A stretch of DNA of 64,000 bases from a virus. Where the stretch lies: positions 1-64,000 of IMG/VR virus record IMGVR_UViG_3300034024_000020; one strand, written 5' to 3'. A model generated the notes under the pieces. The model searched no databases, was not told the origin of the DNA, and saw only the letters and a program-made list of their open reading frames with translations. Shown piece after piece: positions 25,619 to 48,064 of this stretch. The translations under genes were made by a program, and so were the position numbers. Each line of letters starts with the position of its first letter. The stretch's first letter is position 1.

Positions 25619-25891
25619 ATGGAAGAGCAAGAAACTAACATTCTCAATCTTATCGCTGATATTCGCACTCTTGGCGATGATCTAGAAGAGCGTAGCGAAG
25701 AGCTGGCAAAGCTTGAAGGACAGGTTGAAGATACGAAGGAAGATGTAGAGCATCTTCGTGCTGAAATTCGTGCTAAGCGAGATCAGCTAGACGGAATTCT
25801 CGATGAGCTTATTCCTGACCGTCAGGAAGAGGACCGAGGTAGTGGTTACGGCAATTTTGACCTTGTAAGTCCGATTCGCAGTAACTATTAA
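25619..25891 (+). CDS. Acidic coiled-coil protein (90 aa)
   Basis: Residues 3-65 are one long heptad region (DIRTLGDDLEERSEELAKLE). Directly ahead of the tmRNA. Confidence 0.65.
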   Translation: MEEQETNILNLIADIRTLGDDLEERSEELAKLEGQVEDTKEDVEHLRAEIRAKRDQLDGILDELIPDRQEEDRGSGYGNFDLVSPIRSNY

Positions 25892-25892
25892 G

Positions 25893-26250
25893 ATATAGTC
25901 GTTGACGACTGTAGTAAAAGCCGGAGGATACGCGGGTTCAACTCCCGCCACCTCCACCAAAACAAGACCGCCTTTTGCGCAGAGGGTAGCTAGGTTGGCA
26001 GGGTGGCTCGCGCAGCTGTCCGACAGGTTCGAGTCCTGAGTGTCTTGTTTTGATGGGGGTGAACTGGGATCGACCGAGGGCGGAATAAGCAATCTGAGAC
26101 TATTGACTGGCAAAGTGCCATAAGTAAAGGCAAATGATAATGAGCCTATGGAGGAAATGGAGCTTCGCCTAGCGGCGTAAGCTCTCTCCGGGGACTGGCC
26201 CACCTGTCACAACAACGGGCCAACAAGCCGCGAGGCATCATTAGAAGCAG
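25893..26250 (+). ncRNA. ssrA: Circularly permuted two-piece tmRNA
   Basis: The acceptor piece comes first: T-arm GCGGG-TTCAACT-CCCGC (25932-25948), 3' acceptor strand CACCTCC (25949-25955), A, encoded CCA (25957-25959). The coding piece follows after a spacer: 5' acceptor strand GGGGGTG (26055-26061), then the tmRNA start signature GAACTGGGATCGAC. The two strands form a 7-bp stem with one G-T pair. The tag frame at 26130-26180 reads ANDNEPMEEMELRLAA-stop, a proper ClpXP-type tag ending. Downstream GGCCC/GGGCC pairing fits a pseudoknot. tmRNA with SmpB frees stalled ribosomes. The permuted form is known from alphaproteobacteria, some cyanobacteria and some betaproteobacteria. Confidence 0.92.
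25959..26054 (+). other. tmRNA intervening segment with tRNA-like fold
   Basis: Bracketed by a perfect 10-bp inverted repeat, AAAACAAGAC and GTCTTGTTTT. Inside, CAGG-TTCGAGT-CCTG is a T-arm look-alike. It would be cut out when the two tmRNA pieces mature. Confidence 0.6.
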
Positions 26251-26258
26251 GAGAAGCA

Positions 26259-26498
26259 ATGTTAACAGTAAAAATACGTAATAAAGACGGAAATGAGAAT
26301 ATAATTGAAGCAACCAGCGTAGAATGGATCGAGAAGCCCACACAGGGTGAAGTAGGTCACATTATGCCTGGTGTTTTGGCACATCTGCCCAACGGAGGTT
26401 GTTCAGAATATTTGCTAGACGATAATCCCGGTATGACTATCTGGGTTATGAATAGAGCGGGTGCAACAGTTTCTAACTACATTTTTGGTGAGAGATAA
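26259..26498 (+). CDS. Small unknown protein (79 aa)
   Basis: AGGAGAAGCA before the ATG. MLTVKIRNKDGNENIIEATS, strand-rich. Right after the tmRNA on the same transcript. Confidence 0.65.
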   Translation: MLTVKIRNKDGNENIIEATSVEWIEKPTQGEVGHIMPGVLAHLPNGGCSEYLLDDNPGMTIWVMNRAGATVSNYIFGER

Positions 26499-36848: not shown

Positions 36849-37001
36849 ATGGCTGAATTTTATTATGTGCAGTGGGGCGATCTTGCCGCACTTAAATCTG
36901 AAATAACAAGGCTCAAAGAAAGAGTGCAAAAGCTGGAATCCAGTGAATATGGCACCACTATGGAACTTGAAAGACTAAAATCAAAGCTTGTGGACGTGTA
37001 G
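36849..37001 (+). CDS. Small coiled-coil protein (50 aa)
   Basis: MAEFYYVQWGDLAALKSEIT then a coiled coil. The last codons lie inside the following tRNA gene. Confidence 0.6.
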   Translation: MAEFYYVQWGDLAALKSEITRLKERVQKLESSEYGTTMELERLKSKLVDV

Positions 37002-41878: not shown

Positions 41879-42040
41879 ATGATTACTTCTTGTGATAAAT
41901 GCTGGTCCTTACCATGTACTTGCGGACATGATTATAAAGGATTAAGTGTAGCCCAAATTAGAGGATTAATCCTACAACTGGAAGCAAGATTGGGTCGAGC
42001 CGCTCTTGAGGATTACGATGAGAGGCAATCTTGGCGATGA
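41879..42040 (+). CDS. Small Cys-rich protein (53 aa)
   Basis: MITSCDKCWSLPCTCGHDYK: four Cys and one His at the N-terminus, a likely zinc site; helical tail. Confidence 0.65.
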   Translation: MITSCDKCWSLPCTCGHDYKGLSVAQIRGLILQLEARLGRAALEDYDERQSWR

Positions 42041-42201
42041 TTTGGACTATTCTTGTAACAATTTATGCGACGGGTTTTGTTTTTACAATCTATATAGTCG
42101 AGTGGCAATTCTACAGAAGCTTAGGTTTTAATTTAGCCAACATATTTATTACAGCTACAATTTGGCCACTCTTCCTAATTATAGCTCATATGCTACCTTA
42201 G
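42037..42201 (+). CDS. Small membrane protein (54 aa)
   Basis: Two hydrophobic segments (3-22, 33-51). Its stop lies in the tRNA-Thr gene. Confidence 0.6.
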   Translation: MIWTILVTIYATGFVFTIYIVEWQFYRSLGFNLANIFITATIWPLFLIIAHMLP

Positions 42202-42645: not shown

Positions 42646-42674
42646 TTGACTTGGAACTGGATTTTTCATATAAT
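42646..42674 (+). promoter_or_regulatory. Phage promoter with leaderless gene
   Basis: ATTTAGTTC, TTGACT (42646-42651), 17 bp, TATAAT (42669-42674), GGCTTA, then ATG. Confidence 0.93.
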
Positions 42675-43964: not shown

Positions 43965-44040
43965 GGGGGATTAGCTCATCTGGGAGAGCGCCTGCTTTGC
44001 AAGCAGGAGGTGATCGGTTCGAGTCCGATATCCTCCACCA
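43965..44040 (+). tRNA. tRNA-Ala(TGC)
   Basis: Acceptor GGGGGAT/ATCCTCC with the G3-U70 Ala identity pair, anticodon CCTGC-TTTGCAA-GCAGG, CCA encoded. Confidence 0.95.
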
Positions 44041-44058
44041 TATAAAAGGAGTAAGTAA

Positions 44059-44349
44059 CTGAAAAAGGTAGGTTTTACCATTATGACCGCGAACGCTGAC
44101 CTTGAAAGAAAGGTTAAGCAAATCGACGCATTCCTTCTCAAGGGAGAAGAAGTACGCGTAAGCGTTGATGTTAAACGTGGTCAAGGTCGAATTTTCGGTG
44201 CTGCTCTTGACAAGCTGAACCTAATTACGGGGAAGCTTGAAAACGCAAAAGTTATTGCTAAACCGTCCCAAAAGGGTGCGGGTTATCAAACAGTTATACG
44301 GGCCGGTAGCTCAATTGGGAGAGCGCTTGACTTGCAATCAGGAAGATAG
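44059..44349 (+). CDS. IF3 C-terminal-domain-like protein with a CTG start
   Basis: From CTG 44059 the product (about 96 aa) begins MKKVGFTIMTANADLERKVK, then IDAFLLKGEEVRVSVDVKRGQ, ALDKLNLITGKL and NAKVIAKPSQKGAGYQ. This follows the IF3-C outline K.I.F...I...D...K...FL..G..V.V...F.GR...G....I. The domain alone can bind 30S subunits and discriminate initiation. AAAGGAG lies 7 bases before CTG, and an in-frame TAA touches the CTG, so a longer protein is impossible; the ATG at 44083 lacks a binding site and would cut the first strand. Bacterial infC also uses a rare start (AUU) for self-control. The last 17 codons run through a tRNA-Ala gene. Confidence 0.65.
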   Translation: MKKVGFTIMTANADLERKVKQIDAFLLKGEEVRVSVDVKRGQGRIFGAALDKLNLITGKLENAKVIAKPSQKGAGYQTVIRAGSSIGRALDLQSGR

Positions 44350-44374
44350 GGTTCGACTCCCTCCGTGTCCACCA
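44300..44374 (+). tRNA. tRNA-Ala(TGC), second copy
   Basis: D-arm TAGCTCAATTGGGAGAGC, anticodon CTTGA-CTTGCAA-TCAGG, CCA encoded, G3-U70 kept; two mismatches low in the acceptor stem. Its first 50 bases are also the end of the IF3-like gene. Confidence 0.8.
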
Positions 44375-46849: not shown

Positions 46850-47768
46850 TCAAAACGACGGAAATAACAAGTTTGGCCGTATGGGGTCATTAGGGTAAGG
46901 GTGGCGACACCCCCAAAGCAGGGAAGCTTACATACCTGCGCTCGCAAGAGTCCATCTATACAAGCCTACATCACGCCCGAAAGGGTGTCTTCGTGAAGAG
47001 CGGAGATAGTCGTGAAGTGAGGTTGAGGAAAGAATTCTGGTCGATGTCCCGCAAGGAAGGCAGGCTGGAGAAGAACGGGGTAGTAGCCGTCTCTCAGCAC
47101 ACTAAACTCGCGAACGATGATGGTAAATGGTAGTGCCATTGTTCGATGCTTAGCGGCAAAGGGCTTCGGTGCAATTCAAACGGTTGGTGGGAGTCACACC
47201 CACGTAGATCGTGAAGAATGATTGAGTAGGTTTAGCAGACCAAAAGATAGCATAGGCGTGTTGTATTTCGTAGATTAATAGTCTGCGAAGCGACAGAGGT
47301 AGCACGTCTTGGTAAGTTAATGCAATTTGTTCAATGGTAGAACATTAGTCTATGAAACTGAGAGTGTTGGTTCGATTCCAACATTGCAAGCTATAAAAAC
47401 GCAAAGACTACCTCGGTATACAGCGAAAGTCATCTAATGCCGGACTAAAGAATTCGGCCTAGGAAAGCTCGCAAGGCAGACCTAGTTCATGGTAGATCGC
47501 TCATAAATCTCTTAGCGGAGGTTGAACGGCTCGCAAGGTCGGTGGGAAGGAAATCGTGGAGTAGTTGTATATGTCACCGCAAAAGCTAGCGGTATATCAA
47601 ATGAGCGATGATGTTCATTAGTGGCAACCCTGCCTCTGGAAACCTGATTAAGCACCTCGCAAAAGGTCCGCGTACGGTCAGAAGATTGAACAATTAATAG
47701 GTGTATTCTCAGCCTATGTTTTAACGAGTTTTTATGTCGCCCAGGTTCGGAAGAAAGCAAGCGGCATC
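46850..47768 (+). ncRNA. Large structured RNA (about 0.9 kb) with embedded tRNA
   Basis: Own promoter, no gene on either strand, many local hairpins (CACGCCC-GAAA-GGGTGT near 46972; GGTGGC-GA-CACCC near 46899) and repeated CTCGCAAG/CTCGCAAGA elements (46941, 47468, 47529, 47656). A tRNA is enclosed at 47320-47390. GOLLD RNAs are of this size and occur by phage tRNA genes; membership is a hypothesis. The 82-codon minus frame at 47512 is not credible. Confidence 0.75.
47320..47390 (+). tRNA. tRNA-like element inside the large RNA, anticodon ATG
   Basis: ATGCAAT/ATTGCAA acceptor (first pair mismatched), D-arm GTTC-AATGGTA-GAAC, anticodon TTAGT-CTATGAA-ACTGA, T-arm GTTGG-TTCGATT-CCAAC. ATG would read CAU (His); A34 is unusual there. 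No CCA. Confidence 0.7.
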
Positions 47769-47857: not shown

Positions 47858-48064
47858 GTGAACCTAATTTCTTGGATAGTTTTAGGCGGTTATGTCTTTA
47901 TTGCAGCATGTGTTCTGGCAGCGCTTCGAGTGGGAGCAGCTAAGGAAGGCGTGAAGCTCAATTGGGTCTATTTGTTCATTGCAGCAATTTGGCCTTTGTG
48001 GATAGTATTTTACCTTTGGGTTCTAGTATATAGCTGGGCCAATAGAGATAGAACGGTAGCGTAG
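47858..48064 (+). CDS. Small membrane protein (68 aa)
   Basis: GTG start after AAGGAG. Two segments (4-26, 36-60). TAG lies in the next tRNA. Confidence 0.6.
   Translation: MNLISWIVLGGYVFIAACVLAALRVGAAKEGVKLNWVYLFIAAIWPLWIVFYLWVLVYSWANRDRTVA

Follow-up and report, generated by a model that had tools for sequence, protein, structure and literature searches.

A phage gene for an IF3 C-domain-like protein with a probable CTG start and a 3' end inside a tRNA-Ala gene

Introduction

Translation initiation factor IF3 discriminates against start codons other than AUG, GUG and UUG, and in vitro its C-terminal domain (IF3-C) alone keeps all functions of the factor, including the rejection of non-canonical codons, with an affinity for the 30S subunit that is about 100-fold weaker (PMC4611024). 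The infC gene of E. coli begins with ATT, and the rare start of infC serves autocontrol (PMC5472188). IF3 is also encoded by huge phages (PMC7162821) and by jumbo phages (PMC7824862). In the present study we analyzed a stretch of 64,000 nucleotides (hereafter the window; positions 1 to 64,000 of IMG/VR record IMGVR_UViG_3300034024_000020), in which an IF3-like gene sits between two tRNA-Ala genes of a phage tRNA array. Messages can be freed by tRNA processing, an arrangement called tRNA punctuation, as in animal mitochondria.

Results

The Phage Genome

The complete record (115,703 bp) represents a T5-like phage with about 37 tRNAs, whose DNA polymerase shares about 45% identity with T5-group enzymes and whose NAD-dependent ligase is split. 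A permuted tmRNA was detected on the plus strand (25866..26271; ARAGORN; Rfam RF04321, 69.7 bits), which we take to suggest an alphaproteobacterial host. Its tag is ANDNEPMEEMELRLAA, and the tag of the permuted tmRNA in the relative G050 (L119, 17531-17843) is VNDNDMEVAQAA. A GOLLD RNA lies inside the tRNA array (47251-47715, Rfam 156.9 bits), and an ARAGORN tRNA call with anticodon atg (47320-47391) falls within it.

A Diverged IF3 C-Domain Protein

The IF3-like gene (44059..44349, plus strand) comprises 96 codons and a stop codon in a single open frame from CTG 44059 to TAG 44347-44349, and an in-frame TAA (44056-44058) directly abuts the CTG. Codon likelihood over 44059-44298 is +0.36 per codon in this frame and -0.85 and -0.78 in the other forward frames (10 long genes of the phage score 0.14-0.53, and the 95th percentile of random 240-nt pieces of the array is 0.07); the codon usage is in line with that of the phage's long genes. 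The product, with a net charge of about +8.5 and a pI of 10.3, matches Pfam IF3_C (PF00707) with E = 1.9e-5 and 24.9 bits, short of the curated cut-off of 34.8 bits, and PHROG 9787 ("translation initiation factor") with E = 3.2e-5. Searching the PDB with the product by sequence alone gave no credible match, so the homology is remote yet consistent.

In an alignment of 20 sequences (the product and 19 IF3 C-domains taken from viral contigs), the invariant residues D14, F25, L26 and G29 are retained in the product, as are the near-invariant V32, G49, P69 and G73 and the conserved K2. AlphaFold2 run on this alignment predicted the beta-alpha-beta-alpha-beta-beta order of the IF3-C fold for the CTG form (pLDDT 82.1, pTM 0.67). 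In the Foldseek search, all 18 PDB matches at E <= 1e-3 were bacterial or mitochondrial IF3 (best match 2m71, E = 1e-6; 1tig, TMq 0.80; 5lmn, TMq 0.79). The original prediction, which had proposed an IF3-C-like protein from the DNA letters, is thus borne out by Pfam, PHROG, the AlphaFold2 fold and Foldseek.

The N-domain and linker are absent from the frame, which is closed by the TAA before CTG 44059, and identity to E. coli IF3 is about 19%. The conserved basic residues of the C-domain are presumably its 30S contacts. In an E. coli numbering that depends on the alignment, five basic positions are lost (K97 to G, K123 to E, R129 to D, R133 to G and R168 to A) and four are kept (K94, K110, K125 as R and R131 as K). 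From sequence and model together, the product is best read as a diverged C-domain-only IF3.

The 115.7-kb record yielded neither a second copy of the query nor a further IF3_C match. Two large syntenic relatives, G007 (115,141 bp) and G050 (111,462 bp), resemble the phage in the order of their tRNAs; no IF3 was found in them, and their tRNA-Cys/tRNA-Ala interval holds other small genes, so the IF3-like gene was either gained in this lineage or lost elsewhere. Nor was a close homolog found among 2.9 million viral contigs, a set that may leave out the records nearest to this genome, so that closer relatives may exist. Recent capture of a host gene is unsupported, since a peptide-pattern search of 84,980 bacterial and archaeal genomes gave no close relative. 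In the tree the product stands on a very long, saturated branch.

The Start Codon

The CTG at 44059..44061 is most likely the translation start, as judged from homology and modelling. Codons 2-8 (KKVGFTI) encode strand 1 of the domain, with a lysine found in all homologs that cover the position; an equal fit to the strand-1 profile occurs in 0.4% of the stop-free 7-codon stretches of the window (p ~0.004). CTG 44059 is preceded at the usual spacing by AAAAGGAG as a Shine-Dalgarno (SD) sequence; the element AAAAGGAGT (44044..44052, plus strand) lies 6-7 nt before the CTG and forms an anti-SD duplex of -8.4 kcal/mol. SD sequences equally strong are found at 3.3% of the CTG codons in the window.

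An in-frame ATG (44083..44085, plus strand) is the alternative start and also has an SD-like stretch (AAAAGGUAGG, -9.2 kcal/mol), so a second, shorter product is possible. Starting there would remove strand 1: the Pfam IF3_C score drops by 4.3 bits, and the AlphaFold2 model lacks the strand and falls to pLDDT 76.4 and pTM 0.59. CTG is preferred mainly because strand 1 homology lies upstream of ATG 44083, and it is the sole plausible start that takes in this strand, being none of AUG, GUG and UUG. Whether 44059 reads CTG or ATG hinges on one consensus base. The proposed CTG start therefore finds support in strand 1 and in the poorer ATG-form model; the "perfect" ribosome binding site claimed for it is a good one, though not unique, given the SD-like stretch at ATG 44083.

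Overlap With the Downstream tRNA-Ala

The 3' end of the gene lies in a tRNA-Ala(TGC) (44300..44374, plus strand), identified by ARAGORN, by Rfam (50.8 bits; gathering score 29), by its fold and by 90.7% identity to a KVP40-group tRNA. The overlap (44300..44349) takes up 50 of the 75 nt of the tRNA and holds 16 sense codons and the stop, codon 81 straddling the boundary; the earlier statement that the last 17 codons are the 5' two thirds of a tRNA-Ala is correct on both counts. The IF3 domain proper stops at about codon 82, and the remaining tRNA-coded tail, with a codon likelihood of -0.31 per codon and a pLDDT of about 57-67, is tRNA sequence incidentally read, outside the domain.

This tRNA forms a cloverleaf with a UGC anticodon, G3-U70, CCA and a 7-pair acceptor stem with one bulged U, a type common to KVP40-group phages and two other tRNA-rich contigs. 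Besides 44300-44374, the combination of a short T stem and an acceptor stem of 7 pairs interrupted by a bulged U was seen in tRNA-Ala(UGC) at L121 1001-1075 and at 3005-3077 of L002 and L003. In KVP40-group phages the bulged-U tRNA-Ala is annotated as a pseudo-tRNA. For 44300-44374 we reject such a status, given the score of 50.8 bits and the recurrence of this bulged-U acceptor stem across four phages. A stop codon evolved for the gene is likewise rejected, because the KVP40 tRNA, in a plain tRNA cluster, has the same TAG-bearing T-arm.

Directly upstream of the gene lies a well-formed tRNA-Ala(TGC) (43965..44040, plus strand; ARAGORN; Rfam 64.1 bits). A sigma-70-like promoter, TTGACT-17-TATAAT (42646..42674, plus strand), matched 11 of 12 positions in a consensus scan in which the count of such sites was not above chance; it probably starts a tRNA/mRNA transcript holding the IF3-like gene.

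An RNase P cut at 44299/44300 would end the message one base past codon 80, without a stop codon. The originally predicted cutting of the mRNA by tRNA processing is a consequence of the coordinates, provided that RNase P matures the tRNA, but it would not be specific to IF3. Three other small ORFs of the window (36849-37001, 42031-42201 and 47858-48064) each reach precisely 10 nt into a tRNA, whose conserved U8-A9-G10 supplies their TAG stop codon. The same 10-nt arrangement was seen at L116 15749-15943 and L119 9340-9531 (minus strand). The cases in G007 and G050 are homologous genes (41% identical) that end in tRNA-Lys in this way, so borrowing a stop from the tRNA is a conserved trait that extends beyond IF3.

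Other Phage IF3 Genes

All phage IF3s examined have an N-domain, except for the window gene, L004 and L030. Among about 22 distinct phage IF3s, ATG was the start in about 18, GTG in 2-3 and TTG in one, and L028 would start at ATA or ATC. Rare starts as a rule for phage IF3 are thus excluded, as most full-length ones begin with ATG or GTG, with L028 as the one clear exception. This full-length IF3 (L028 2764, on a 389-kb viral contig) has no ATG, GTG or TTG ahead of its N-domain and likely starts at ATA behind GAGG, an infC-like rare start.

Apart from the window gene, only L004 has an IF3 C-domain by itself within a tRNA array (22 tRNAs in 5.9 kb). At 2600-2640 of this contig, AAGGAA is followed by ATG AGA TTT TAA C, in a frame shifted by one base from that of the domain, and ATC is an alternative start; the offset could reflect a prfB-type +1 frameshift, a mutation or faulty assembly. 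As its SD and ATG are out of frame by one base, L004 was not counted as a second rare-start case. In L030 (2500-3240), low-complexity sequence, perhaps an opposite-strand gene, stands in place of the N-domain region, and the locus looks like a full-length IF3 gene with its 5' part replaced. Further scans for C-domain-only IF3s gave no third clear case.

Discussion

The explanation we favor, held tentatively and with not quite even confidence, is a CUG-started accessory IF3-C made at low level, which binds 30S subunits and whose message is cut by tRNA maturation. CUG 44059, behind its good SD, would give a basic 96-residue protein with the IF3-C fold, which would most likely bind 30S subunits and act as an accessory low-level IF3 biasing initiation during infection. 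The CUG start would make for low output and sensitivity to IF3 activity: because IF3 rejects codons other than AUG, GUG and UUG, a CUG-started IF3-C is expected to be IF3-sensitive, and host IF3, perhaps also the protein itself, would repress the CUG start, as in infC. RNase P maturing the downstream tRNA-Ala would deprive the message of its stop codon, and full-length protein would come solely from uncut transcripts. The analysis demonstrates the homology, the predicted fold, the coding signal and the overlap; the start at CTG is strongly inferred, whereas 30S binding, IF3 sensitivity and message cutting are steps that we infer only. The phage tmRNA could rescue ribosomes on the cut, stop-less IF3-C message. 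A self-limiting switch, in which IF3-C represses its own CUG, maturation of the two flanking tRNA-Ala genes excises 44041-44299 as a stop-less piece and tmRNA tags the product, leaving a brief period for expression before processing, would be an improbable extension.

An infC-like self-repression of the window gene would be in keeping with IF3 biology. The self-control reading is weakened by the mostly ATG-started phage IF3s and by the several missing basic residues; since these residues differ, 30S binding is uncertain, and self-repression hinges on such binding. Against the favored explanation also weigh the Pfam score short of the cut-off, the lack of a close homolog among the viral contigs, the absence of the gene from G007 and G050, the SD of ATG 44083 and the single consensus base that decides between CTG and ATG. 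The reading as a whole is plausible, with its regulatory core unproven.

The gene could instead be the decaying remnant of a captured IF3 that lost its N-domain, AUG and C-terminal tail in the shuffling of tRNA cassettes and is now little used. The very long branch, the lost basic residues and the tRNA sequence in place of a C-terminal tail all fit such decay, and so do a start codon a single base from ATG, the single known copy with no detectable gene in G007 and G050, and L030 as another phage IF3 with its N-domain lost. Yet decay must be reconciled with 80 open codons of good usage and no frameshift, an SD in register and the presence of all fold elements, and we regard it as unlikely, if the strongest of the rivals.

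Distinctly less probable is that translation starts at ATG 44083, giving an 88-residue protein without strand 1 and making the CTG irrelevant. Its SD-like stretch speaks for it, but the strand-1 fit of codons 2-8 with the accompanying gain in Pfam score, the worse ATG-only model and the CTG's own SD at the usual spacing all argue the other way. To a protein that has the IF3-C fold and serves as an antagonist or redirector of host initiation, competing for the 30S subunit in place of doing the work of IF3, we give the same low probability. The missing N-domain, the altered basic surface and the wealth of translation genes in the phage suit this idea.

If the accessory IF3-C is made, the gene would be a natural test of two questions: whether the IF3 C-domain can work alone in a cell, and whether the rare-codon feedback of infC has been copied by a virus. 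The small genes of the array suggest a wider phage habit of borrowing the stop codon from the next tRNA, and with the stop inside that tRNA, tRNA maturation and gene expression would compete.

Compared with tRNA punctuation, the window gene likewise has a message flanked by tRNAs, but its stop codon lies inside the tRNA and its release by processing is putative. With bacterial infC/IF3 it shares C-domain homology, the predicted fold and a non-AUG start of the kind that IF3 discriminates against. Unlike E. coli infC, it has CTG and not ATT and is without N-domain and linker, and it overlaps a tRNA and lies outside an operon such as thrS-infC-rpmI-rplT, where infC lies. Full-length phage IF3s (Escherichia phage 121Q gp47, Sinorhizobium phage Phosso, the huge phages of PMC7162821, PHROG 9787) also carry a phage-borne IF3-C domain; in them the N-domain is present as well and translation begins for the most part at ATG or GTG, whereas the window gene is C-domain-only with CTG, and the annotated full-length ones inspected have no tRNA overlap. 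L004 (IMGVR_UViG_3300032132_000754, 2617-2877) is C-domain-only within a dense phage tRNA array as well; its product, 28% identical to the window protein, has a complete C-terminus and its own stop and does not overlap a tRNA. Phage IF3 is thus already known, and the new part is a variant that is C-domain-only, probably CTG-started and tRNA-overlapping.
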